From positions 1-24,856 of the IMG/VR virus record IMGVR_UViG_3300042922_000971: a stretch of 24,856 bases of DNA; one strand, written 5' to 3'. Below the pieces are notes generated by a model, which saw nothing but the letters and a program-made list of their open reading frames with translations, was not told the DNA's origin and did no database searches. This DNA comes from a virus. Below, piece by piece: positions 4,282 through 24,634 of this stretch; within the stretch, counting starts at the first letter, position 1, and the number at the start of each line of letters is the position of its first letter. Position numbers and translations under genes: made by a program.

Positions 4282-4610
4282 TATAAACCTCCTCCTAATA
4301 TTTCGGCTATAGCCATCTCTAAGTCTAAAAACCTTTGTTCTTCAGTCGTTGGTCTTTTCGGTATGTTGTTTATAATGTTTATTTCATTTTGAATTTTTTC
4401 GTCAGTTTTAACTACTATCTGTCCATCAAACATATATAAATATATACCTTGAATATCTGATAAATTTGGATTGACTTCTCCAAACAATTCAAAATGCCTT
4501 TGACCATTTTCATTAACACAAATATCGGTTTCCAACGGAGTTTCAAATGCATCTGAAAAACCTTTTATAATATTGTTGTTTATATCTAATCTTATATAGT
4601 GTTTATTCAT
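4281..4610 (-). CDS. Tail-fibre accessory protein, unknown function (109 aa)
   Basis: ATG start, nine bases after the tail-fibre gene ends. The N-terminal half reads like a small beta-rich domain (YIRLDINNNIIKGFSDAFE, then IYLYMFDGQIVV), and the C-terminal part is helical (RPTTEEQRFLDLEMAIAEIL) and could form a coiled coil. Similar short proteins follow tail-fibre genes in many Firmicutes phages and are thought to be fibre chaperones or tip proteins, but I cannot assign a family. It is coupled to the 49-aa gene by a TAATG overlap. Confidence 0.75.
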   Translation of the reverse strand: MNKHYIRLDINNNIIKGFSDAFETPLETDICVNENGQRHFELFGEVNPNLSDIQGIYLYMFDGQIVVKTDEKIQNEINIINNIPKRPTTEEQRFLDLEMAIAEILGGGL

Positions 4611-6031: not shown

Positions 6032-7052
6032 CTATACCACCTCCGTAAGTGTAACTATTCCTGCTATTGGCATTTCCTCATTGTCTATTGTTATGTTTGC
6101 TGTACCACCGTTGACAAGTAAGGAATTGTAATCCTGTACTCCGGCTGTTGCCAGCAGTATACTACCTATTTTGGCATAACTTACACTGTAAGTCTCAAAT
6201 ACGGTATCTTTTAAGTATTCAGTCAATGCTGCTATGAATGCTGTCTGCACATCTGCCAGAAGCTGAGTTCCGTCAAGTATTACGTTAGCAGTGGGTACCT
6301 ATTGTCTGACTTGTAGGACTGCCAACAGTAACGGCAGCACCTATTGGCCTGACTGTTTCAATGTAAGCTGCTACAATAGCAGGTAATGCTGCGTCAATGG
6401 CCATATTACTGTCCACAACAAGAACTTTTACAGTTCCTGCGCCACTCCATAGTGGAAATACCTTTGCGTCCCCTACTCCGGGTACTTCCAAGGCCCATTC
6501 CTTATAATTGTCAGCATTTCCGGATGTGCTTGGTGATTGTATCTGAGCATAGAATCGGGCACGTAGATTGTCATCTGTTTCTTCATCGGCTCCAGAGATA
6601 AGTATAGAAGTTAAAGTAGCTGTAATGCCTGCTACATTGTCGATATTATCTAAAGTTCCGGAAAACTGATTACCTATCACACCAAGCTGTTCACATTGAG
6701 CTTTATAAACATTTGTTGACACCAGTTCAGTAATTACATAAGTAGTATCCTCTAAGCCCCACCTTGTACCTATTGCAACAACACCGGTTGTATCAACCTG
6801 TCTTATTGCATAAGTAGCGGCTTTTCTTGTGATACCATAGTCAGCAACTACTCTGTCGAGATATTCATCAACAGCTGTATCACCGCTTACCAGATCTATA
6901 AAGTTATTCAATAAAAAATAAGCTTGTGCCAATTGGTAAGCACATGGAGCCAGCGCGTCATATATGATAGAGCCTTCACGCTTGTCTACATCACTTGTAA
7001 CTCTGCTTAACATATCAGCAAGAATATTTTCATATGTCATTGTTTCGAACAT
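6032..7052 (-). pseudogene. xkdT: Baseplate J-like protein (XkdT), interrupted by a one-base frameshift
   Basis: The first frame (7052 down to 6285, 255 aa) has the baseplate J/gp47 pattern: DVDKREGSIIYDALAPCAYQ at the start, a SGADEETDDNLRARFY segment and a GNADNYKEWALEVPGVGDAKV segment. It stops with THC-TAA. The family continuation is found in the other frame: ANVILDGTQLLADVQTAF leading into KDTVFETYSVSYAKIGSILL and NGGTANITIDNEEMP, ending at 6032. Removing one C from the CCC run at 6293-6295 (minus strand) restores a continuous protein of about 339 aa, the normal length for XkdT. The wedge protein is essential for baseplate assembly in myoviruses, so as written the tail would be defective. 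A sequencing error in the short run is the main alternative. Confidence 0.85.
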
Positions 7053-10982: not shown

Positions 10983-11565
10983 TATCGCCTACCTCCTTTC
11001 GCTTTATTTACTTGTTTTTTCTCTTCCTCTACCCTCAGCTGAGTGCTTGCATATAGAAAAGCTTTTTCTTTTTCACTCATGTTTGCAATAACTGAAGGCA
11101 GTATATGTAACTTCTGAAGTGCAAAATGAGCCAGATTAAACTCAGGATCATTTTGCTTTATTCGTTTTTTACTTCTTCAATATCCTCGTTTATGTCGCCA
11201 TCCAATCCGGATAATTCAGTGACTGCCTGTGACAGAGTCGCAAACTCTCCTATGTTGAGCATAACCCCCAACAATGAAGTTTCACCTAATACTCCATAAG
11301 CGTTCTGCAGTTCCGCATTTTTCAAGTCAGGAAATATGACAGCACTTGCAACAAGCGCATGAGAATATTCTGTTCTGTCCAGCCTTTCCTGGCCTGTTTT
11401 CTTGTCTGTCTTGGTATATTTCTTGATTAACTGAGCATTCTCTTTTTCAGATATTGGTCTGATTACAAACGGAACAGGCTTGCCATCTTCTACAAATCTA
11501 TTTGATATTACCACTTCTTTATTTTCAATTTTTACTGGGTTTAAAAATGCTTTTAATGAACTCAT
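10982..11565 (-). CDS. Tail assembly chaperone, -1 frameshift product (XkdN-like, about 194 aa)
   Basis: This is the long form made when ribosomes slip back one base at 11164-11170 near the end of the XkdN-like frame. The added 60 residues run RIKQNDPEFNLAHFALQKLH through a lysine/glutamate-rich helix (NMSEKEKAFLYASTQLRVEE) and stop with TAA at 10982, one base into the tape-measure ATG. No other start is needed or available for this stretch, which would otherwise be a 175-base gap. The pair of short and long products corresponds to lambda gpG and gpGT: the extension recruits tail tube protein to the tape measure. Evidence is the slip site, stem-loop, open frame and exact end. Confidence 0.85.
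11121..11170 (-). promoter_or_regulatory. Programmed -1 frameshift signal (slippery heptamer plus stem-loop)
   Basis: On the minus strand the in-frame heptamer A AAA AAC lies at 11170-11164, two codons before the zero-frame stop. Seven bases further on, GCAAAATGA (11156-11148) pairs perfectly with TCATTTTGC (11129-11121), with CC/GG able to extend it. Heptamer, spacer and stem match the standard recoding layout. Confidence 0.88.
11158..11565 (-). CDS. xkdN: Tail assembly chaperone, short form (XkdN-like, 135 aa)
   Basis: The zero-frame product matches phage XkdN-like tail assembly chaperones: FVEDGKPVPFVIRPISEKEN near the N-terminus, KKYTKTDKKTGQERLDRTEY, ALVASAVIFPDLKNAELQ and GEFATLSQAVTELSG. 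It is not part of the virion but binds tail tube and tape-measure proteins during assembly. The ATG follows AGAGG by eight bases. It lies after the tail tube gene, separated by an intrinsic terminator, and before the tape measure. Its 3' end carries the -1 frameshift signal giving the 194-aa form. Confidence 0.9.
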   Translation of the reverse strand: MSSLKAFLNPVKIENKEVVISNRFVEDGKPVPFVIRPISEKENAQLIKKYTKTDKKTGQERLDRTEYSHALVASAVIFPDLKNAELQNAYGVLGETSLLGVMLNIGEFATLSQAVTELSGLDGDINEDIEEVKNE

Positions 11566-13972: not shown

Positions 13973-14310
13973 GCTGTATCATCTCGCTTAGCACTGAATT
14001 CCTGATGGCTTTTGTACGGAATTCCTTCTCCAATGTCAAGTGTTCTCGTCTTTCCGTCTTTCATCGTGACAATTATACGGTCTCCCTCTTTTAAATCAGT
14101 TTCTAAAGCACAAAATAATATATAGGAGTTAATTATCGATGGGGCACCTTCCATGCCTGTATCAGTCAATTTTGGTTTGCTAAGGTGACACTTGACATCA
14201 CTGTATAGTGGCACAGCAGGAAGTGTATTCTTGGTAATGCCATTAACTATGGATTTTTCCCATCTATAAACTGACATCTTATCTTTCCAAAGTCTCTCTA
14301 AGGCGCTCAT
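13969..14310 (-). CDS. Head closure/minor capsid protein, YqbH/XkdH-like (113 aa)
   Basis: The segment LWKDKMSVYRWEKSI, a central CHLSKPKL, LKEGDRIIVTMKDGKTRTLDIGEG and the ending SHQEFSAKRDD match the YqbH/XkdH family between the head-tail connector and gp10-like proteins. It probably plugs the portal ring after packaging. It overlaps both neighbours by four bases. Confidence 0.82.
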   Translation of the reverse strand: MSALERLWKDKMSVYRWEKSIVNGITKNTLPAVPLYSDVKCHLSKPKLTDTGMEGAPSIINSYILFCALETDLKEGDRIIVTMKDGKTRTLDIGEGIPYKSHQEFSAKRDDTA

Positions 14311-14708
14311 TTTCGCGTCCTCCTGAAAGCTTTAAGATTGCTTTTATCGCTGTCAGAGAGGCCATAAGTTGTCTCTTTTGAGTTATTCGAATCGACATTA
14401 TATGTTATTTTGGTATCACCTTCATCAATCGATTTAACATCGAATACAGCCGTCGTACCGTTCTCAGTTTCATAGTTGATTATAGACTTAACTTTCTTCC
14501 GGATAAATGGCTCCAGCTCTGCTGGTATTTCAACCTGAGAATAAACTTCTTCAAGAGTTATTTCCTGCATAGCAGCCAGAACTTCAAGAGGATATTTTGT
14601 CAGATTACAATAATTCATAACATTCTGGATAACATCCCCGATTATTAAATCTTTGTCATTAATATTCAGGTTGCTTTTTACTTTCGCAATTAAAGCACTT
14701 ATAAGCAC
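14307..14708 (-). CDS. Head-tail connector protein, YqbG/DUF3199 type (133 aa)
   Basis: A mostly helical N-terminal domain (LISALIAKVKSNLNINDKDL, then VMNYCNLTKYPLE and an EPFIRKKVKSIINYE helix) followed by a polar tail with GDTKITYNVD and KSNLKAFRRTRK is the pattern of connector proteins related to gp15 of SPP1 and gp6 of HK97. Start is GTG with AAGGAG eight bases ahead. A terminator lies immediately upstream of the ribosome site, so transcription of this gene and all tail genes must read through it. Confidence 0.82.
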   Translation of the reverse strand: MLISALIAKVKSNLNINDKDLIIGDVIQNVMNYCNLTKYPLEVLAAMQEITLEEVYSQVEIPAELEPFIRKKVKSIINYETENGTTAVFDVKSIDEGDTKITYNVDSNNSKETTYGLSDSDKSNLKAFRRTRK

Positions 14709-14722
14709 TGTATCAACTCCTT

Positions 14723-14750
14723 AAAAAAGGGAGCTGACTACTCAGCACCC
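14723..14750 (-). terminator. Intrinsic terminator after the capsid gene block
   Basis: On the minus strand GGGTGCTGA (14750-14742) pairs with TCAGCTCCC (14737-14729), with one T-T mismatch, followed by six Ts. It overlaps the end of the SAP-type gene and lies 15 bases before the next start codon, separating head from connector and tail genes. Confidence 0.8.
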
Positions 14751-15067
14751 TCTATATTTTTATTTTCTTCGTCTTCTCCAAGATCATAAATATCAGCAGC
14801 TTCATCGGCCTTTTTAATTGCTTCGAGAAGTTTGGCCTTTGTCATAGCTTCAAAGCCCTCAATACCTTTTTCCTTGGCGATTTCTTTTAAATCTGCAACC
14901 TTCAAAAGTTCCAGCGGCTTAGGCACTTCTTCATCGAAGGCATATCCTCTGACTTTTAATATTTCCACGGTCCTTTTGTCTTCCGTTTCAAGTTCCCCTT
15001 TTTCAAATGCACATAAAGGACGGTTGTTTTCACCGTCCCATACTATGCCGTGTCCTTTAAATTTCAT
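14738..15067 (-). CDS. Capsid-region accessory protein with SAP/Rho-N-like segment (109 aa)
   Basis: The N-terminal half (GHGIVWDGENNRPLCAFEKG, TVEILKVRGYAF) is a small beta domain seen in many Firmicutes phage proteins next to the major capsid gene. Residues about 54-90 (LKVADLKEIAKEKGIEGFEA then MTKAKLLEAIKK) form a helix-extended-helix of the SAP or Rho N-terminal type, which often binds nucleic acid. The C-terminus is very acidic. ATG follows GGAGG by six bases. It may bind DNA or the capsid lattice; exact role unknown. Confidence 0.8.
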   Translation of the reverse strand: MKFKGHGIVWDGENNRPLCAFEKGELETEDKRTVEILKVRGYAFDEEVPKPLELLKVADLKEIAKEKGIEGFEAMTKAKLLEAIKKADEAADIYDLGEDEENKNIEGAE

Positions 15068-15077
15068 CTAGCGCCTC

Positions 15078-15254
15078 CTATTCTAGTGCCATAAGGCCTG
15101 CTGCTCTTAATTTTGCAAGTAAAGCATTAAGATCAGTTACAGCACCAGCGGCATCAACAGCAACACTGTCAGCTTGATAAGCTAACTGTGCTCCATCTGG
15201 CTTTTTATCAAGTTCTATTCTTACTTCAGGTGCAATACCTACTCTTTCATCCAT
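15078..15254 (-). CDS. Head-fibre-like small protein (58 aa)
   Basis: The frame starts at ATG 15254, six bases after AAGGAGG, and ends with TAG at 15078. The N-terminal section contains VGIAPEVRIELDKKPDG, followed by QADSVAVDAAGAVTDLNALL and KLRAAGLMALE. The second half (AVTDLNALLAKLRAAGL) strongly resembles the C-terminal motif shared by phi29 gp8.5-like head fibre and related small capsid-decorating proteins. It lies 11 bases after the major capsid gene, a usual place for decoration proteins. Short length probably keeps it out of automatic calls. Confidence 0.8.
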   Translation of the reverse strand: MDERVGIAPEVRIELDKKPDGAQLAYQADSVAVDAAGAVTDLNALLAKLRAAGLMALE

Positions 15255-15265
15255 ATTGAACCTCC

Positions 15266-16213
15266 TTATTGTGTTGCTAATCCGGTAACAGTTCCATGCA
15301 TGAATGCTGGTCCATGATCAAGACCGAATTTACCATAAATTTGGCCATCTTCAGAGGCACCCACTTTTGAGAGTTCTTCATAGAAGAAGTTTCCTTTTTC
15401 AGGAACGGGCTGGAATACTGGTGCAAGTACTGACATTTCAGCAGCCAAAACAGAAGCTTGTGGCATGAATCTGTTTAAAGAAATACCGATGTTTCCAAAG
15501 TCGGTTTCAATCTGCTTTATGTTTGTTCCACCTATATTTCTATCTGTAGGAGCATATGAATATAGGCTTGTTATGACTTGTTTCTGGAAGCTGTTTACCC
15601 AAAGAACCATGTTGGAGAAGATAGCTCCATTATCATACATTTCTTTGAATAGCGATTGAAGCATAGCTTTTGTTAATGTTGCTGCGCCCCCTGCTACTGT
15701 ATTACCAGCTGAGCATAAAGCTATAAGTCCTCTTGTCTTGTTTGCCACATCAGCTGCAGTGGATTTCTGATATACCCCATTGATTAAGGTGTACTCAACA
15801 TCTCTCGCAATTTTCTTAAGAGCAGTCGCAATTTGAAAGTCTTTTTCGCTAGGTACATTGTTTGTCTGTCCCTGAGTATTAAGACCGCTTAATCTTCCGC
15901 CATTAGAGAGCTTCTCGTAAGAAATGGATACTTTCTCCTGGAAGATCTGAGTTACGTTTGTGCTTTGGTCTCTTACGAACCCTGTAGCTGCTGGAGCTGT
16001 CAATGATGCAGTTTCTGTTATAGCCGGTTGAGCTGCTGTAGGCATTGAATACTGAGAGTCTGTAGGAAATTCAAAATTATCTGTTTGTACGCCCCCAGTC
16101 ATCCCGCCTATAGCGGTTAAAATAGGTGTGTTTAATTCGTCTGCAGTATATAAGTCACCTGCATAGTTTGGTAAATTCCATACTGTTCCTTGTCCTGTTA
16201 CATTTACTGGCAT
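15266..16213 (-). CDS. Major capsid protein (315 aa)
   Basis: The protein resembles the SU10/DUF5309-type major capsid proteins (HK97 fold). Seen are the N-terminal NLPNYAGDLYTADELNTPIL, a TASLTAPAATGFVRDQSTNV strand region, QIFQEKVSISYEKLSNGGRL, ATALKKIARDVEYTLINGVY, and late NIKQIETDFGNIGISLNRFM with EELSKVGASEDGQIYGKFGL. The latter block (ASEDGQIYG) is typical of the family's C-terminal P-domain. Position between scaffold and decoration genes agrees. ATG follows GAGGAA. It assembles the icosahedral head. Confidence 0.9.
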   Translation of the reverse strand: MPVNVTGQGTVWNLPNYAGDLYTADELNTPILTAIGGMTGGVQTDNFEFPTDSQYSMPTAAQPAITETASLTAPAATGFVRDQSTNVTQIFQEKVSISYEKLSNGGRLSGLNTQGQTNNVPSEKDFQIATALKKIARDVEYTLINGVYQKSTAADVANKTRGLIALCSAGNTVAGGAATLTKAMLQSLFKEMYDNGAIFSNMVLWVNSFQKQVITSLYSYAPTDRNIGGTNIKQIETDFGNIGISLNRFMPQASVLAAEMSVLAPVFQPVPEKGNFFYEELSKVGASEDGQIYGKFGLDHGPAFMHGTVTGLATQ

Positions 16214-16216
16214 ATT

Positions 16217-16828
16217 TTATTCCTCACTTTCCTTTAGGTTGAATAATTGATTTTTAGCCGCCACTCTTTGAATAAATGGCGTTTTAGGATCATTTATAAT
16301 CGCTTCAAGTTCCTGCCTCTTACCTTTTGGCGGCTGACTGCCACCAGTATTGTTAGGCTGGCCACCTTTTACAGGCGGTACAAATAAATCCTTATATGTT
16401 TCTTTGATTGTTGTAAGCTGCTCATCGATACCAAGTACTGTTCCGTCAGCTGCAACCGATAACTTTGTCTTATCGAATTTAGTTGACAGTAAGTCCGGAT
16501 ATTTAGTATCAGTCAGCTTAGCCTGGATTGCAGAATTAATATTAATCTCTTTTATTTTGTTTTCATATTCTGTCTTTGTAGCTGTGTTTGCATCCTGCAG
16601 CTCTTTGATAGTCTTTTCGAGCTCCTCATTTCCTTTAACTTTTTTATTAAGTTCCGTCAACTGAGTATCTCTATCTTTAATCTGTTTTTCCAGGTCTTTC
16701 TTTGTTTCATTTACTTCATCAAATCTTATCTTAGGAATAAATCCCTTCAACTCTTCCAATGAAGCCTGTTCAACTTTTAAAGCCACAGCTTCTTCAAGTC
16801 CTAATGCTATTAATTCTTCTTTTTTCAT
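16217..16828 (-). CDS. Capsid scaffolding protein, phage minor structural GP20 type (203 aa)
   Basis: A long charged coiled coil (about residues 40-100, with repeated ELEKQIKDR-like heptads) is followed by INSAIQAKLTDTKYPDLLST, a conserved segment of GP20-type scaffolds, and a flexible proline/glycine linker (VPPVKGGQPNNTGGSQPP) before a short C-terminal helix that would bind the capsid protein. It guides head assembly and is then lost. The start is the ATG at 16828, nine bases after AAAGGA; an in-frame ATG at 16852 lacks a site. Confidence 0.9.
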   Translation of the reverse strand: MKKEELIALGLEEAVALKVEQASLEELKGFIPKIRFDEVNETKKDLEKQIKDRDTQLTELNKKVKGNEELEKTIKELQDANTATKTEYENKIKEININSAIQAKLTDTKYPDLLSTKFDKTKLSVAADGTVLGIDEQLTTIKETYKDLFVPPVKGGQPNNTGGSQPPKGKRQELEAIINDPKTPFIQRVAAKNQLFNLKESEE

Positions 16829-17022
16829 TTTCTTTCGTCCTTTCAAATACATTATTTTTTCGTGGTTCAGTCCACGTTATTTGTCTTATCAGTTAACGTC
16901 CGTAATACCAAAGTGACGAATCTTAAAGCATATAAATAAGGCCTTTACCCAAGCCTTCTGGGAGATAGAGGATCACCTAACCTTTCTGAATTATTTTCTT
17001 CATGATTAGTTAAAATCACCTC
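16829..17022. other. Non-coding gap between scaffold gene and HExxH gene
   Basis: About 190 bases with no convincing gene. On the minus strand a strong AGGAGGTGA at its right end is not followed by a start codon at normal distance; an ATG 15 bases on encodes only eight residues. A short hairpin, CGTGG/CCACG at 16861-16876, and an AAGGC/GCCTT pair near 16950 are present. No promoter with both boxes was seen. It may be a degraded gene or a structured leader of the scaffold mRNA. Confidence 0.5.
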
Positions 17023-17372
17023 CTACAAACAATTTGCATCTTGAAAAGCTCTTAACATTTTAGGGAACTGAATTGCAATCCAGTCAACCATTTCCTCGCA
17101 CTGTGACCATGCCCCTTCGTATTGCAGAGAATTTCCGGATAATCCGCTTTCATGTAAAAAAGCGTGAATTATTTCATGTCTCAATACTTTTTTATTGTAT
17201 TCGGCTAAATTATCTGTCATATTGTCTTTTTTTGTTCTTCTTCAGTATATTCTCTTACAACTAATGTTTTATTAGGGCTATCACAATAACCATCATAATC
17301 CTTTAAGACATCGTCATCTTTTAATAGTCTGAACTCTATTTTGTATTCTGTTCCTAAAATATTTACCGCCAA
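17023..17372 (-). pseudogene. HExxH-type putative metallopeptidase, split by a -1 frame change (116 aa if joined)
   Basis: The first frame starts at TTG 17372, seven bases after AGGAGG, and runs 51 residues (AVNILGTEYKIEFRLLKDDD, a DYDGYCDSPNKTLVV segment, EYTEEEQKK) to a TGA at 17217. The second frame continues from the same point: DNMTDNLAEYNKKVLRHEII, then HAFLHESGL, EEMVDWIAIQFPKMLRAF. The joined protein looks like a family of small phage proteins carrying a zinc-binding HEIIH motif. The join falls in a run of seven As containing the in-frame slippery heptamer A AAA AAG (17226-17232). It could be a lost A, a read error or true recoding. No substrate is known; it lies between the glycine-zipper gene and the scaffold gene. 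Confidence 0.75.
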
Positions 17373-17398
17373 TTTGACACCTCCTATATTATTGCAAT

Positions 17399-17422
17399 AA
17401 AAAACCCCGGATTACTCCGGAG
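17399..17422 (-). terminator. Intrinsic terminator after the glycine-zipper gene
   Basis: On the minus strand CTCCGGA (17422-17416) pairs with TCCGGGG (17411-17405), one G-T pair, loop GTAA, followed by TTTTTTATT. The next gene starts 27 bases further with no room for a promoter. Confidence 0.88.
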
Positions 17423-17479
17423 TCATACCTGGACTGTTACGCTTCAATGAGAGGCTTCGCAGGGACTATTCTTATTTAA

Positions 17480-17821
17480 TTAAAACATTGATTTTACTAA
17501 TGCTTTATAAACTTTATCATCAATTTCTAATAAACTTTTTTTACCGTCTTTGAATTGTATTGCCACCTGGTAGGTCCCTTTATTCTTGGCTGAAAGTGCA
17601 CCACCTATCAATCCTACTGGACCTAAAAGAGCCCCTCCAACTATTCCACGACCTATACCACCTGCTGCAGATTTCCTGTGTTCATCAGTTATAACTTCAT
17701 AAGTTTCTACGGAATTCTTATTTAATAGTAGTGGTTTAAATAAACTTACGGCTATACTGCACGCCCCAGCCGCTTGAACTACATTTTTACCATTATAATC
17801 CCTTGCAATTACCATATTCAT
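17480..17821 (-). CDS. Glycine-zipper protein of unknown function (113 aa)
   Basis: The centre (about residues 54-76: GGIGRGIVGGALLGPVGLIG) is a glycine-zipper hairpin that could insert in a membrane. It is flanked by a short N-terminal domain and a C-terminal beta segment YQVAIQFKDGKKSLLEIDDK. Similar small proteins with this zipper plus DGKKSLLEID ending occur in Firmicutes phages and genomes without known role. ATG follows GGGAGG by seven bases. It lies between the minor head protein and a strong terminator. Possible roles are membrane-associated exclusion or an ejected head protein; both are guesses. Confidence 0.75.
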   Translation of the reverse strand: MNMVIARDYNGKNVVQAAGACSIAVSLFKPLLLNKNSVETYEVITDEHRKSAAGGIGRGIVGGALLGPVGLIGGALSAKNKGTYQVAIQFKDGKKSLLEIDDKVYKALVKSMF

Positions 17822-17854
17822 AACATTACCTCCCTTTTGGTAATATTATATACA

Positions 17855-18868
17855 CTATTTGCTAAATTTTTCAAGCCATTCTTTATATTTTATATCTGCA
17901 GGAACTTTATAACCTTTACCATCACTTGCCCTGGCAACCCTTGATGTTCGTTCCATGTCATCATAGTAGGGTATAGTCGTTGTCCTGCAAAACTGATGAT
18001 AAGGAGGATAATTTTCACCAACAACTGCTTCATTGATGTTGTAGATCTCTCCGTCTTCATCCTGGCATATTTCTGAAGTTTTGCTGTCTAAAGTTGCAAG
18101 TATTTCATACTTTTCAACACCATCTTGCTTATATGCTTCAAGTGAGCCTTGCTCCGCAATAAAGGCCCCTTCTGTGTGAAGTAATCTGTAGGCTTCAAAC
18201 TCTCTTACATCGAATTTCTTAGCAAAATCGTAACTCAGTGCTGCTGGATTCTTGCCAGTAACGATCATTGTCGTTATGTTCTCCCTCAGCTGCTGAAGCA
18301 TATAATCTTTCTGCCTCCATAGTCTATCAGAAAAGTTTGCACCGTTAAACGGATAATTTATCAATTCTTCCACAGCTTTTGCATTTATCTGTGCAAATTC
18401 CTGATGGAATCCACTGTACAAATCAATATTATACCAGGTTCTATAATAGCTTTCAGAATAAACCCCTTTCAGTAGGTCCTCACCCTTTACCTGGTATTCT
18501 ATTGCATACAGCTGTTGAAGTATGGCGTCAATTTGTTTTTCTAGCGCCTGGTATCTGGTTATTCTGGCCCGGATGGACATGTTGTTGAGCTCCTGGTTGT
18601 ACTTGTTCATGTTTTCTTTAGCCAGAGCTATGAATGAATTTAGACCTCTTATTTCTTCCCGGCTCAACATCTGATGCGCAGCCGCCCAAGATACTTTATT
18701 CTCTCTTGCATACTTACCGTAAAACTCATTGATGGCTTGCTGCACTTCTTTCTTTGCCTGTTCAAAAGACCTCTTCAGTTCTTTATAATAAGCATTTACT
18801 TGCTTTTCTCCTGCAAGAAATTTCTGTTCCTGGCGTTTCTGCCAATATAATTTATCTTCTTTATTCAA
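17855..18868 (-). CDS. Minor head protein, SPP1 gp7 / Mu F-like (337 aa)
   Basis: A long helical N-terminal region is followed by the Mu F/SPP1 gp7 C-terminal domain: FDVREFEAYRLLHTEGAFIA, EKYEILATLDSKTSEICQDE and the YPPYHQFCRTTTIPY ending, which carries the conserved C, H and C residues. These proteins sit inside the capsid near the portal and take part in DNA ejection. Start is TTG with AGGTG about eight bases upstream. It follows the portal gene by ten bases. Confidence 0.9.
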   Translation of the reverse strand: MNKEDKLYWQKRQEQKFLAGEKQVNAYYKELKRSFEQAKKEVQQAINEFYGKYARENKVSWAAAHQMLSREEIRGLNSFIALAKENMNKYNQELNNMSIRARITRYQALEKQIDAILQQLYAIEYQVKGEDLLKGVYSESYYRTWYNIDLYSGFHQEFAQINAKAVEELINYPFNGANFSDRLWRQKDYMLQQLRENITTMIVTGKNPAALSYDFAKKFDVREFEAYRLLHTEGAFIAEQGSLEAYKQDGVEKYEILATLDSKTSEICQDEDGEIYNINEAVVGENYPPYHQFCRTTTIPYYDDMERTSRVARASDGKGYKVPADIKYKEWLEKFSK

Positions 18869-18878
18869 GGTTTATCAC

Positions 18879-20294
18879 CTACTCTTCAATATTGCCTGTG
18901 CCGCCAAGAAGCTTAACTTCAGTTGTTTTATTTTCCTCTTCAATTTGCTTTATCTCATCTTCAACATTGTCAACCCATGGGTGGTTTGTGATTATTGTCT
19001 TATCAGAAATAACACCTTTACTGTTTGCGCAGTCTTCAATTGCTTGAGATTCATTAATGGCAATGTCACGATTGAACACTATGTTTATTTCAGCATTTGA
19101 AGTTGATTGCTTTGTTATTTCCATGTACCTATTAACAAAATAAAGAAGTTGTTCGAATGCCCATTTAAAGCTATCCTCCAGAGCATTACATTTCAAGTCA
19201 AGCCCTGAATAAATGAACTTAAGAGCAATACCGGAAGGACTGTTTCCAAGTTTATCAGAATTCTTGTCCACTCCTTGCCCAAAATCAAAGATATCCTTTT
19301 TAAGTTGCTGGAAGTGTTTCTCTGCGGCATCGATATTTATGGTTGTTTCAATCTTATCAAGTCCAGCATTTTCATCGGCATCTAACTTCACAGCTCTATA
19401 ATAAGATAAGTCTCTCATGAATTCAGAAAGATTTTCTCCGCCATAGCCACGTAATGCCATTATAAAATTTTTGATATCTTCGATATCATTTGAAACATCG
19501 GACCTTGTTTTATCATAATCATCAACCAAAGTTTTCACAAACTGAAGATCCGGCAACTCAAAGTCATTGTTCTTGAATGGTATGAACGGAACTTTCCCCC
19601 AGCTCCCTGACTCATTTCCAATTATGAAATGCGGTATTATGTTGCTTTCATATTCAGCATCAAGATACATCTCAGAATCAAGTATAACCCGGCCATTTCC
19701 ATCAAGCATGTAATACGTAACACCTTCGACAGTGTGATACTCTATCTTAGTTATGTACTTTCTCTCTTTGCCTTCGTAGACCTCAACGTCATAATACCTG
19801 ATAAAAGCTTCAAGCTCCTCGTGATCATTGTCAATCCATATTGGTATACACTGTTCTGAAGACAACTTCAATGTTTTAAATTTCCCCATAACATTTATGT
19901 ATGGATGCAGCCAAGCGATTCCTTTGTTGCTAGCTTCTGTTCCTAACTGAATGAATTTTTTCTGAAATCTCTTGCCAAGAATATCTTGAGCATTTTTCAA
20001 GTAGGTTTCCTCTTTGCATTCTAATGAATATGGCTTAACGAGAAGATAATTCACTTTATCGTCAACCAAAGTATGCATGAAGCCATGCGCCAGCTTGTTG
20101 TTTGTTTTAGTGTCATCCTCAACCGGTTGCTCATTCTCATAACGATACATTTTACGATTGAGAACATCATTTTCAACCTTGTAATATTTCTCGCCTTTAA
20201 CCATGAGCTGACGCTCTTTAGATATATTGAAATCATCCAAGTATATTTTTATGAGTTCTTCTCTAGTTAGTATGTTAACATCATTTTTTATCAC
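18879..20294 (-). CDS. Portal protein, SPP1 gp6-like (471 aa)
   Basis: The protein matches the SPP1 Gp6-type portal family: KGEKYYKVENDVLNRKMYRY near residue 35, NNKLAHGFMHTLVDDKVNYL, GIAWLHPYINVMGKFK, VPFIPFKNNDFELPDLQFVK, LVDDYDKTRSDVSNDIEDIK and SPSGIALKFIYSGLDLKCNA. It forms the dodecameric ring at one capsid vertex through which DNA is packaged and ejected. Start is GTG with AGAGGTG upstream. Length is normal. Gene order TerS-TerL-portal-minor head is standard. Confidence 0.93.
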   Translation of the reverse strand: MIKNDVNILTREELIKIYLDDFNISKERQLMVKGEKYYKVENDVLNRKMYRYENEQPVEDDTKTNNKLAHGFMHTLVDDKVNYLLVKPYSLECKEETYLKNAQDILGKRFQKKFIQLGTEASNKGIAWLHPYINVMGKFKTLKLSSEQCIPIWIDNDHEELEAFIRYYDVEVYEGKERKYITKIEYHTVEGVTYYMLDGNGRVILDSEMYLDAEYESNIIPHFIIGNESGSWGKVPFIPFKNNDFELPDLQFVKTLVDDYDKTRSDVSNDIEDIKNFIMALRGYGGENLSEFMRDLSYYRAVKLDADENAGLDKIETTINIDAAEKHFQQLKKDIFDFGQGVDKNSDKLGNSPSGIALKFIYSGLDLKCNALEDSFKWAFEQLLYFVNRYMEITKQSTSNAEINIVFNRDIAINESQAIEDCANSKGVISDKTIITNHPWVDNVEDEIKQIEEENKTTEVKLLGGTGNIEE

Positions 20295-20306
20295 TATCTC
20301 ACCTCT

Positions 20307-21707
20307 TTATTTGAATACTTCCATACCTTTCTTGTCTATGTTTTCAGCAATTCCTGTTGTTGCGTCAGGACCGTCATCGTGTGGGTTCTTGCCTTCTTTT
20401 TGATACTTAGACATAGCCGAATAATATTCTGGCCACTTATCACGCCAGTTAATAGGGTAATAAATATGGTCCATAACCCAGGTGCTGTTTGAAAGAATCC
20501 TAGCAATCTTATTTTTACTTTGATGGAACCACTTAACTCTTGTTTTATTACTGCGAAATACATCTTTAAGTATTCGTTCAACAGCTCTGGCAAAACCACG
20601 TCCACCGTTATTTGATTCTATATCCGCAATGTTTACACCAAACTCATATAATCTTCTGGCCGTTTCTTTTTCAGTAACTTCCATAGGATCCTTTGTATAA
20701 TACACATCAAGAACGTAGGCTTCTTTATGGTACACACCATAAATAATATTACATAGATAATCGGAGCCTTCATCCGCTGTATCACAATAGGCCTTAATTG
20801 TTGTAAATAATAAATTGCCCTTATCATCCATAGGCAGCTTCGTATATGTTTTAAAACTTGTATATAATCGACCTTTAATGTCAATTGGCTCCTGCTGATA
20901 GTTGGCACTGAATATGTCAAGCCCCATAGCCTTTTTCTTATTCTCGGCAGATCTACGTGAGAGTATTTCAGGGCACAACATTGTTCCGTCATCCTGGATT
21001 GCTTTCATCGTTATATGTTTAATCTTTGCACCAATTTCAGTAAAGTGCTTTAAAGCTCTTCCGGCTAGATCTAAACTGTGCCACCTGGTCATTACAATGA
21101 GTATCTTGCCACCTTCTTCAAGACGAGATAACATTGTATTAGTGAACCATTCCCAGTGCTTTTCAAGCACATCAGCGTTGTTTGCTTCCAGAGCTGATTT
21201 TATTAAGTCATCTATGAGCATAAAGGTACAACCAAAACCTGTCGCAGTACCTGTCGGAGATGTGGCCAGGTAATTATTATAACCACCTTCCAAGCTCCAT
21301 AAGTTCATGGCTCCATCACCACGTTTTATCTTAGTGTCTGGGAAGATGTCAGAATAAACGATTTTATTCTCATCTGCTTTTTCTTCCTGGATGCTATTTC
21401 TAACATTCTTTGAAAACATAGTTGACAGAGTTTCATTGTATGATCCTGTCATTATTTTTTCTTCTTTATTTTTCCCTAGGATCCATTCAACTAACAGTCC
21501 AGCTGTTCTTGATTTACCGTGTCGAGGAGGTAAATTGATTATACCAACTTCATCATCGGATTCGTAAAAGTCCTGAAGATCATTACAGAATTCAATGAGG
21601 TATTTTCTATTATCTTTGTAAAACTCAGGTGCTTTAATATTGCAATAATAAAAGAACTCGCGTCTTGCAAGTTCTAAAGTAAATTGTTTTTCTAATTCAG
21701 GTGTCAT
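20307..21707 (-). CDS. terL: Terminase large subunit (466 aa)
   Basis: The ATPase domain shows a Walker A-like PPRHGKS at 60-66, a Walker B-like FMLIDDL with D166/D167 and the TRWHSLD coupling motif near 207. The nuclease domain has the acidic residues D309 (AYCDTAD), E364 (DIESNNGG) and the DDGPDA cluster at 444-449. All expected residues of a headful or cos-type packaging motor are present, so it looks functional. ATG overlaps the small subunit stop (ATGA). Confidence 0.95.
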   Translation of the reverse strand: MTPELEKQFTLELARREFFYYCNIKAPEFYKDNRKYLIEFCNDLQDFYESDDEVGIINLPPRHGKSRTAGLLVEWILGKNKEEKIMTGSYNETLSTMFSKNVRNSIQEEKADENKIVYSDIFPDTKIKRGDGAMNLWSLEGGYNNYLATSPTGTATGFGCTFMLIDDLIKSALEANNADVLEKHWEWFTNTMLSRLEEGGKILIVMTRWHSLDLAGRALKHFTEIGAKIKHITMKAIQDDGTMLCPEILSRRSAENKKKAMGLDIFSANYQQEPIDIKGRLYTSFKTYTKLPMDDKGNLLFTTIKAYCDTADEGSDYLCNIIYGVYHKEAYVLDVYYTKDPMEVTEKETARRLYEFGVNIADIESNNGGRGFARAVERILKDVFRSNKTRVKWFHQSKNKIARILSNSTWVMDHIYYPINWRDKWPEYYSAMSKYQKEGKNPHDDGPDATTGIAENIDKKGMEVFK

Positions 21708-22162
21708 TTCTTCCCCAACGCCTTTTTAATATCTTCTGTTGAAATTCCTTCGAATGGATTATTAATTTGCCCTGAGTGTTCTATTTGTTGTTTGTCTCTC
21801 CATAAATCAGGTCTTCTATTCTTTAACCAGAATATCTGTGCTGTTGTGTCTGGAATAACTTCTTTTATTGTTGTAGTAACCTTTTTACCATCTTTTTTAC
21901 TTACTTCAGTTTTAGTTTCAACATAAGCATATCCTAAAGCACGTTTTAACAATGCATTCTCAACCTGAATGTCAATTACATCCTTGCCCCTTTTTAAGGC
22001 CTCGCAAATCTCGCAATACTTTTCCTTGTATCTATATAAAGTTGCGACATTTATGTTCATATTCTGTGCTATTTGCTCATCAGTTAAACCGTTTCTTGCC
22101 CATGCTTCAAGCTTCAGCAAGCCTTCAGGTGTTAACCAATATTCATACTTGCCTTTGGCCAT
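21704..22162 (-). CDS. terS: Terminase small subunit (152 aa)
   Basis: A helix-turn-helix is visible near the N-terminus (GLTDEQIAQNMNINVATLYR, with WLTPEGLLKLEAWARN before it), followed by a helical oligomerisation stretch (VENALLKRALGYAYVETKTE) and the ending FWLKNRRPDLWRDKQQ typical of Firmicutes phage small terminases. It recognises the packaging site and loads the large subunit. I prefer the ATG at 22162, six bases after AGGTG; an upstream GTG at 22171 is inside that site. It is the first gene of the structural block, just after a terminator. Confidence 0.9.
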   Translation of the reverse strand: MAKGKYEYWLTPEGLLKLEAWARNGLTDEQIAQNMNINVATLYRYKEKYCEICEALKRGKDVIDIQVENALLKRALGYAYVETKTEVSKKDGKKVTTTIKEVIPDTTAQIFWLKNRRPDLWRDKQQIEHSGQINNPFEGISTEDIKKALGKK

Positions 22163-22183
22163 CCAGCTCACCTGCCTTTCATT

Positions 22184-22207
22184 AAAAAAGACACCCTATT
22201 GGATGTC
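22184..22207 (-). terminator. Intrinsic terminator upstream of the terminase genes
   Basis: On the minus strand GACATCC (22207-22201) pairs with GGGTGTC (22196-22190) using one G-U pair, loop AATA, followed by six Ts (22189-22184). It closes the 45-aa gene and lies 22 bases before the terminase start codon, so late genes must be read through it. Confidence 0.85.
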
Positions 22208-22217
22208 TTCAATTTAT

Positions 22218-22355
22218 TTATTTGTTTAACTTTTCTCTTAATTTATTGATAAATTTAGCGATTTCTTCTGCAGTTTCTTCATTGTCAGCACCACTATAAA
22301 GAAGTCCCTTCTCGATCATGGCTATTGTTATTTCTTTTATGTATTCATCATTCAT
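22218..22355 (-). CDS. Small acidic phage protein of unknown function (45 aa)
   Basis: The frame starts at ATG 22355, four bases after GGGGGAGAG, and stops with TAA at 22218. It begins MNDEYIKEITIAMIEKGLLY, continues with SGADNEETAEEIAKFINKLR and ends EKLNK: two short helices, acidic in the middle, basic at the end. Similar very small proteins occur upstream of terminase genes in clostridial phages without known role. It has a clear promoter (22394-22422) and a terminator, making it the first gene of the late transcript. Confidence 0.75.
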   Translation of the reverse strand: MNDEYIKEITIAMIEKGLLYSGADNEETAEEIAKFINKLREKLNK

Positions 22356-22393
22356 TTTTCTCTCCCCCTTTTTGTATGACGATAATTACCAAT

Positions 22394-22422
22394 ATTATAC
22401 CAAGGAAAACTATTTCAATCAA
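22394..22422 (-). promoter_or_regulatory. Promoter upstream of the 45-aa gene, likely entry to the late operon
   Basis: On the minus strand TTGATT (22417-22422), a 17-base spacer, then TATAAT (22394-22399) preceded by TGG, an extended -10. It is the only good promoter seen ahead of the 20-kb structural block. Confidence 0.8.
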
Positions 22423-22917: not shown

Positions 22918-22949
22918 TGAACTGCTTCCCGTCAAGTAGACAGTTAAAA
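22918..22949 (+). repeat. Left terminal inverted repeat of the IS element
   Basis: Matches the right end at 30 of 32 positions, with differences at G22931/A and G22943/A. It starts TGAACTGC, immediately after a C-rich, A-run flank that looks like half a terminator. Confidence 0.92.
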
Positions 22950-22980
22950 TAATAAAACTGTTTAACTAGGAGGGAGCATT

Positions 22981-23658
22981 TTGTATAGAAACAAATATAC
23001 ACCAGAGGAGAAAATATTAATAGTTAAAAAAGTTATAGAAGGAAAGCATAGTATTAATTCTTTGGCAACATCTTATAGTTTAAGTTATACTACACTAAAA
23101 GAATGGGTTCGAAACTATCAATCTATTGGTTCTGATGCATTTTATACGATAGGTTGGGCAAATAGGACAATTGAAGAAAAAGAAGCTGCTGTTTTAGATT
23201 ATATTTCAGGTAAAGGATCATTAAGTGACATTTGCAAAAAATACAAAATTTCAGATACAAAAGCACTTCGCAGATGGATTTTGAAGTATAATAGTCATGA
23301 GAAGCTTAAAGCTTCTGGAAAAGGAGGAAGCACTATCATGACCAGAGGAAGAAAAACCACATTTGATGAACGAGTTGAAATCGTACAGTATTGTATTGCT
23401 AATAAACACAATTATGCTGAAACATCCAAAAAATTTCAGGTGTCGTATCAGCAAGCACGAAATTATACAGTAAAATATGAATTGGGCGGAGTTGAAGCTT
23501 TGGAGGATAATCGAGGCAAAAGAAAATCTGAGAATGAAATGTCTGAATTAGAACAACTTCGTGCTGAAAACAGGATTTTAAAAGCTGCAAAAGAATGTGC
23601 TGAGATGGAGGCATCATTCTTAAAAAAACTCGAGGAGATAGAAAGGAGGCGGGGATAA
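22981..23658 (+). CDS. IS3-family transposase OrfA (225 aa)
   Basis: Start is TTG, seven bases after AGGAGG. The protein has three successive helix-turn-helix-like units: YTPEEKILIVKKVIEGKHSI at about 6-45, a second near residues 70-105 (KKYKISDTKALRRWILKY) and a third near 122-165 (FDERVEIVQYCIANKHNYAE), then a leucine zipper (SELEQLRAENRILKAAKECA) from about 188. That order is typical of IS150-group OrfA, which binds the terminal repeats and, fused to OrfB, forms the transposase. A run of seven As at 23622-23628 near its end permits -1 slippage into orfB. Confidence 0.9.
   Translation: MYRNKYTPEEKILIVKKVIEGKHSINSLATSYSLSYTTLKEWVRNYQSIGSDAFYTIGWANRTIEEKEAAVLDYISGKGSLSDICKKYKISDTKALRRWILKYNSHEKLKASGKGGSTIMTRGRKTTFDERVEIVQYCIANKHNYAETSKKFQVSYQQARNYTVKYELGGVEALEDNRGKRKSENEMSELEQLRAENRILKAAKECAEMEASFLKKLEEIERRRG
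23622..23628 (+). promoter_or_regulatory. Slippery A-run for OrfA-OrfB -1 frameshifting
   Basis: In the OrfA frame the sequence reads TTA AAA AAA, so A AAA AAA is in slip position. The -1 frame is open from here through orfB. An AGGAGG at 23644-23649 lies downstream and could instead support entry into orfB, although that frame has no ATG nearby. Confidence 0.65.
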
Positions 23659-24557
23659 GCCTGATCCGTCATGAATACATATATCAGGCAATTAAAGAAG
23701 AAAATGAGGAACATCATTATCCAATAAGTGCACTTTGTAAGCTGGGAAAAGTATCTCGTGCTGCTTATTATAAATGGATACATAGAGATATTCCAGCGGG
23801 TGAACTTAAAAATCAATATATTGCTGATGAAATAGAGAAGATTCATGGAGATTCTCCAGATAAAGGATATCGTCGAATCAGAGATGATTTGGAACGATAT
23901 CATGATATAAAGGTCAATGATAAGAGGGTATTACGTATCTGTCGCAAAATGGATATAAAATCAACTATCAAATATGCAAACAATGGATGTACAAGACAAG
24001 CAGCTAATCCGAAGCATATAGCTGAAAACATCCTGAATAGGGAGTTTACAGCTGAAGCTCCAAATGAAAAGTGGCTTACTGATGTAACGGAATTTCATTT
24101 TTACATTGGAATTGAAAAGCATAAAGTCTATTTGAGTGCAATCCTAGACTTATATGATAGAAGAATCGTTTCTTACATCATCAATGATTCAAATAACAAT
24201 GCATTGGTTTTTGATACATTTGATGCTGCAGTTGACGCAAATCCGGATGCACATCCCATTTTTCATAGCGACAGAGGATATCAATATACAAACAGAATAT
24301 TTCACTTAAAACTTGAAGCTGCTGGAATGACACAGAGCATGTCAAGGGTAGCCAAATGTATTGATAATGGACCAATGGAAGGTTTCTGGGGGATCATTAA
24401 AAGAGAACGCTACTATGGAAAAAGATTTACCAGCAGAGAATCTGTTATTGAAATGATAGATAGTTACATCAAATACTATAATAACAAAAGATTACAAAGG
24501 AACTTGGGTGTGCTAACACCAATGGAAAAACATGAAATATACATGAAAGCAGCATAA
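23628..24557 (+). CDS. IS3-family transposase OrfB, DDE integrase (about 309 aa as the frameshift extension)
   Basis: The N-terminal part contains YPISALCKLGKVSRAAYYKW and DKGYRRIRDDLERYHDIKVN (the HTH_21 region), followed by the integrase core. The catalytic residues are all present: D in WLTDVTEF, D in FHSDRGYQYTN and E in MEGFWGIIKRE, with 35 residues between the second D and the E, the DD35E spacing of IS3. The end YYNNKRLQRNLGVLTPMEKH is also standard. No ATG with a ribosome site exists at its beginning, so it is expected as a fusion with OrfA through -1 slippage. It appears intact. Confidence 0.92.
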   Translation, partial: TRGDRKEAGISLIRHEYIYQAIKEENEEHHYPISALCKLGKVSRAAYYKWIHRDIPAGELKNQYIADEIEKIHGDSPDKGYRRIRDDLERYHDIKVNDKRVLRICRKMDIKSTIKYANNGCTRQAANPKHIAENILNREFTAEAPNEKWLTDVTEFHFYIGIEKHKVYLSAILDLYDRRIVSYIINDSNNNALVFDTFDAAVDANPDAHPIFHSDRGYQYTNRIFHLKLEAAGMTQSMSRVAKCIDNGPMEGFWGIIKRERYYGKRFTSRESVIEMIDSYIKYYNNKRLQRNLGVLTPMEKHEIYMKAA

Positions 24558-24560
24558 AAA

Positions 24561-24587
24561 CTGCCAGTAGGTATTACCAGCTGGCAG
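24561..24587 (+). terminator. Hairpin after orfB, likely IS terminator
   Basis: CTGCCAG (24561-24567) pairs with CTGGCAG (24581-24587), with GGT/ACC able to form inside. A T-rich stretch follows after a gap of eight bases, so termination may be partial. Confidence 0.6.
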
Positions 24588-24602
24588 AAAAGATTTATAT
24601 TT

Positions 24603-24634
24603 TTTTAATTGTCTACTTGATGGGAAGCAGTTCA
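24603..24634 (-). repeat. Right terminal inverted repeat of the IS element
   Basis: Inverse complement of 22918-22949 with two differences. It ends CA, followed by ATTTCTG. Confidence 0.92.

Follow-up and report, generated by a model that had tools for sequence, protein, structure and literature searches.

What are we to make of a small phage gene whose reading frame breaks exactly at a perfect slippery heptamer? The question is raised by the gene for an HExxH protein in IMG/VR virus record IMGVR_UViG_3300042922_000971, a single record of 24,856 bases from a contractile-tailed phage, all of which was analysed here and is referred to as the window. Either the break is a damaged or misread gene, or it is a programmed site of recoding. 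We conclude with high confidence that it is a one-base insertion or deletion (indel) in an A-rich stretch, arising as a recent mutation or as a sequence or assembly error, and that it is not a programmed frameshift; one base of the A-rich stretch would have been changed, with the heptamer as a by-product. The elements of the broken gene are the following.

17380 to 17385, minus strand: AGGAGG ribosome-binding site of the TTG-started open reading frame
17217 to 17372, minus strand: zero-frame open reading frame with a TTG start, 51 amino acids, N-terminal half of the HExxH protein
17226 to 17232, minus strand: A_AAA_AAG in the zero frame, site of the frame break, not in the closest relatives L002 and L003
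17023 to 17220, minus strand: C-terminal half with HEIIH, in the -1 frame, matching PHROG 1233

A preliminary description of this locus had reported a 51-codon TTG frame with a strong ribosome site and an HEIIH-bearing remainder in the -1 frame, joined within CAA AAA AAG, and the sequence bears this out. The start codon (17372-17370) lies 7 bases past the AGGAGG and is followed by 51 sense codons and a TGA at 17219-17217. The A7 run occupies 17233-17227, where the zero-frame codons are indeed CAA AAA AAG, and the -1 frame reads on as DNMTDNLAEYNKKVLRHEIIHAF... to a stop codon at 17025-17023. The TGA shares bases with an ATG (ATGA, 17220-17217), an overlap that the preliminary description did not mention. 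Two explanations had been set against each other. Either the gene shows an indel or a read error, or ribosomes are programmed to shift to the -1 frame at A_AAA_AAG and thereby make a short form of 51 and a long form of 116 amino acids. In favour of the latter, the junction carries a perfect X_XXY_YYZ heptamer in the zero frame, the -1 direction fits, and the joined length equals that of the family. This length had been called natural, and the unbroken protein of L002 likewise has 116 amino acids.

An indel in an A run easily mimics a perfect programmed site, and what settles the question is whether relatives conserve it, with a probable programmed site of this phage serving as the yardstick. 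The alignment of homologues proposed in the preliminary description was run with the 116-residue protein as query, keeping the best 80 of 268 relatives. A second pair of searches used the C-terminal part only, so that split genes would not rank lower (best 80 of 277 in the later viral search), and the pooled results gave 156 distinct loci after duplicates were removed. With the full-length query, no break lies between the N-terminal part and HExxH in any of the 80 kept loci. In the pooled set three loci are cut by contig ends, and 150 of the 153 others have 52 or more open codons ahead of the motif, a criterion that would overlook a break within a few codons of the start. The motif reads HGIIH in L166 and L168, whose frames are open up to it; L160, whose frame stops early but past HExxH, was left unscored. 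A run of seven or more A's at 66 to 42 bases before HExxH occurs in none of the 150 open loci (the window's heptamer is 54 bases before it). The eight A's anticipated for relatives at this site were not seen either: the closest, L002 (78%) and L003 (73%), are unbroken and use different codons where the window has its A run. Relatives are thus nearly all uninterrupted, which decides the matter for an indel and against recoding, and neither the heptamer nor the split is kept among the homologues as it would be in a programmed -1 frameshift gene. The C-terminal part is also present in 11 GenBank phage records, with an identity below 60% in 10 of them.

The three broken relatives (3 of 153) are each interrupted at another A-rich stretch, and none at the site of the window.

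L116, about 4000: broken HExxH gene
L187, about 2760-2790: broken HExxH gene
L231, about 3010: broken HExxH gene

Intact counterparts with the same C-terminus were found for L116 (L028) and for L187 (L027). These breaks therefore indicate that indels in A-rich stretches are the way in which the HExxH gene breaks elsewhere.

For the yardstick we turn to the phage's own XkdN-like tail chaperone.

11158 to 11565, minus strand, with a -1 extension at 10985 to 11176: XkdN-like tail chaperone
11164 to 11170, minus strand: A_AAA_AAC at the chaperone end, conserved, probably a programmed -1 site

The chaperone frame ends in A_AAA_AAC GAA TAA, and the -1 frame runs for about 60 codons more (KKRIKQNDPEFNLAHFALQKLHILPS...). 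Of 109 relatives, the best 80 were compared, and all 80 contain A_AAA_AAC. In 78 of them at most one codon separates it from the stop, and in L324 and L327 the zero frame stops further up. Most of these loci have similar -1 extensions; in 16 of the 80 a stop was met ahead of the heptamer, and the comparison of extensions covers the others. From these sequence comparisons, the chaperone probably uses a -1 frameshift of the lambda G/GT type. Frameshifting in tail chaperones is well known, as excerpts of two papers state (PMC5009743, PMC10885494), and a literature search that was not deep, taking in an excerpt of PMC12671070, found no paper naming it in XkdN-like genes. The HExxH site thus shares with a tail assembly chaperone an A-type heptamer, and indeed a phage genome, but it has neither the heptamer in relatives nor the conserved -1 extension.

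A comparison with a known site of the same heptamer leads the same way. Escherichia coli dnaX also shifts to the -1 frame on A_AAA_AAG, in the same frame as here (PMC3711429, PMC5009743). Its site is conserved and is flanked by a Shine-Dalgarno-like stimulator upstream and a hairpin downstream, and none of these features is seen at the HExxH site. RNA downstream of the heptamer formed no hairpin better than shuffled sequences (z 0.00, -0.52 and +0.35), and inspection by eye, the only means used, revealed no Shine-Dalgarno-like element 5' of it. The stimulators found in programmed -1 frameshift genes were thus seen on neither side. Moreover, the record holds another frame break, one that occurs without a slip site.

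6032 to 7052, minus strand: baseplate wedge (J-like) gene, its frame interrupted by a single extra base at about 6300 to 6292

The two pieces of the J gene match consecutive parts of PHROG 6, with no slip heptamer at the break. The gene is open in 11 of the 13 loci found, which are all the close ones (L240-L250); L251 and L252 are weak and unusable. When the window was compared with ten pieces taken from six related phage records, the HExxH and J genes were the only ones for which one relative protein matches two adjoining sense-strand frames; an antisense frame near 2930-2940, outside a gene, is matched in the same manner.

The protein itself provides a further argument. Both halves match PHROG 1233, a family of phage proteins of unknown function (C-terminal part, E 3.7e-14; N-terminal part, E 1.5e-5), from which the window copy differs in its broken frame. 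A model of the L002 protein predicted from 58 aligned sequences (pLDDT 92.9) begins with strands and short helices; the HExxH helix, which is long, spans 56-76 and a final helix spans 94-112, and H66, E67, H70, E93 and D97 are invariant across 58 relatives. Structural matches to this model are weak; the best solved chains are IrrE/PprI, the DNA-protein crosslink (DPC)-repair protease and ArdC (Z 4.0-4.7), and most of the weak matches, selecase included, have metal-peptidase folds. Foldseek returned nothing at E <=0.001 (best E 0.5 or worse), Pfam matched the C-terminal part only below the cut-off, NCBIfam gave no family above its cut-off, and a sequence search of solved structures at E up to 1 gave none; BSP was matched at E <=0.01 by 10 of the 58 relatives. 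When intact, the gene looks like one for a small zinc protease, and would produce a 116-residue protein with a putative zincin-like fold. As written, the sequence would produce a 51-residue fragment and no more than a small amount of the second half, through reinitiation at the overlapping ATG or chance slippage. Placed on the model, the break (about residues 47-49) separates the sheet from the HExxH helix within a single compact domain, so that neither half would be expected to form a domain alone.

This bears on programmed frameshifting, since its short form would be half of one predicted domain. Together with a heptamer and split that no relative examined keeps, the lack of visible stimulators and the second break, it makes that explanation very improbable, and conservation has largely refuted it; were it true, a new phage gene would join those that frameshifting controls, but the evidence is against this. 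It also bears on translational coupling, in which the TGA/ATG overlap would allow reinitiation and release the 65-residue HEIIH part as a protein of its own. The ATGA at 17220-17217 is the point in its favour. However, the ATG is an ordinary internal methionine codon in the unbroken genes of L002 and L003, the second half alone would lack the beta-sheet half of the modelled fold, and 150 of 153 relatives have one open frame, with the other three broken elsewhere. We consider coupling extremely improbable.

A further observation concerns selection on the gene. The ratio of nonsynonymous to synonymous substitution rates (dN/dS, NG86) against L002 and L003 is 0.08 and 0.29 for the N-terminal half, and 0.10 and 0.10 for the C-terminal half. 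These substitution patterns show both halves to be still under purifying selection, and therefore the break is recent, or is not in the molecule at all, or is bypassed. Another reading is phase variation, with the A run toggling, or low-level corrective slippage by ribosome or polymerase that yields some full-length enzyme. Unrelaxed selection on both halves fits this reading, as does the run of seven A's, and A-rich heptamers slip spontaneously according to an excerpt of PMC5009743. A long A run is not, however, retained there in relatives, and no second allele of the phage was found, so we hold this to be very improbable. A related proposal, which we regard as similarly improbable, is that this lineage has made an accessory metallopeptidase into a low-output slippage gene: a base was lost, A_AAA_AAG would now allow a minority of ribosomes to finish the enzyme, and the reduced dose would be tolerated or selected.

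Some of these observations do weigh against an indel. The persistence of selection on both halves is what a recoded gene would display, and the heptamer lies in the exact frame that rejoins the protein. The listed coding sequence of the minus strand (about 20.4 kb) contains six zero-frame A-type heptamers, so a random break would rarely hit one. We give this coincidence little weight because A runs are prone to indels in both DNA and reads, and because an in-frame A8 that loses one base yields A_AAA_AAG by construction. In addition, an exact-copy search with the 23-base stretch just past the A run found no second copy in viral or genome contigs, although near records may be absent from those collections, and the site therefore rests on a single sequence.

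On the other side stands the dispensability of the gene. In G001, a record in which many proteins are 90-99% identical to those of the window, the scaffold leader comes right after the small gene that precedes HExxH in the window, and the HExxH gene itself is absent, which shows it to be dispensable. It was matched in 3 of the 13 records searched, whose fragments may conceal more. The heptamer is unconserved and without visible stimulators, the HExxH gene is an accessory one, and a second ordinary break lies in the record; a one-base indel, whether real or technical, explains all of this. As for the source of the indel, the change would be recent or technical. Single, unclustered frame breaks supported by homologues are expected to be sequencing errors, as an excerpt of PMC3711429 has it, and the present break resembles the GeneTack singleton frameshift genes described there in being unclustered, in having intact homologues and in lying in a poly-A stretch; it differs in that a second gene of the record is also broken. 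We lean slightly towards a sequence error, and a real mutation is possible, if at somewhat less than an even chance.

The surroundings of the gene are those of a contractile-tailed phage. PHROG matches in the window give terminase, portal, minor head protein, scaffold, capsid, sheath, XkdN-like chaperone, tape measure, baseplate and lysis proteins, and the HExxH gene has the small gene on one side and the scaffold gene on the other. We considered whether the gene always lies between minor head protein and scaffold, and this fails beyond the closest relatives: in a minority of 155 distinct loci a neighbouring gene matches portal, minor head, scaffold or capsid proteins, always on the same strand and on either side. 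In a DNA search with 14000-22400, the sole near match was the terminase of Clostridioides phage CD1801.

Upstream of the gene the preliminary description had placed a strong terminator, and a hairpin is present there.

17403 to 17424, minus strand: terminator-like hairpin at the end of the preceding cassette, in L003 and not in L002

Its T-run stops 26 bases short of the TTG. The suggestion that the terminator leaves expression of the gene doubly restricted finds no support, as the hairpin closes the preceding cassette and is shared with L003 but absent from L002. About 80 untranslated bases that include it (window 17403-17480, L003 2390-2490) are nearly identical in the two and absent from L002 and G001.

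A long, conserved untranslated leader precedes the scaffold gene (window 16833-16975, minus strand; L003 3050-3210; L257 about 4290-4450). The window, L003 and G001 have almost the same leader sequence, yet between the window and L003 the scaffold proteins share only about 42% identity. The whole Rfam GP20-a model is covered at a sub-threshold 17.9 bits (gathering 47.2), and the leader may be a divergent one of the GP20 type. The minor head (MuF-type) protein at 17855-18868 has 337 amino acids, and its counterpart frames in several related records have 446 to 528, the additional C-terminal part being absent from the window. Finally, an IS3-family element lies at 22918-24634, with inverted ends of 46 bases (87%), an orfA at 22981-23658, an overlapping orfB in the -1 frame and an A7 run at 23622-23628.
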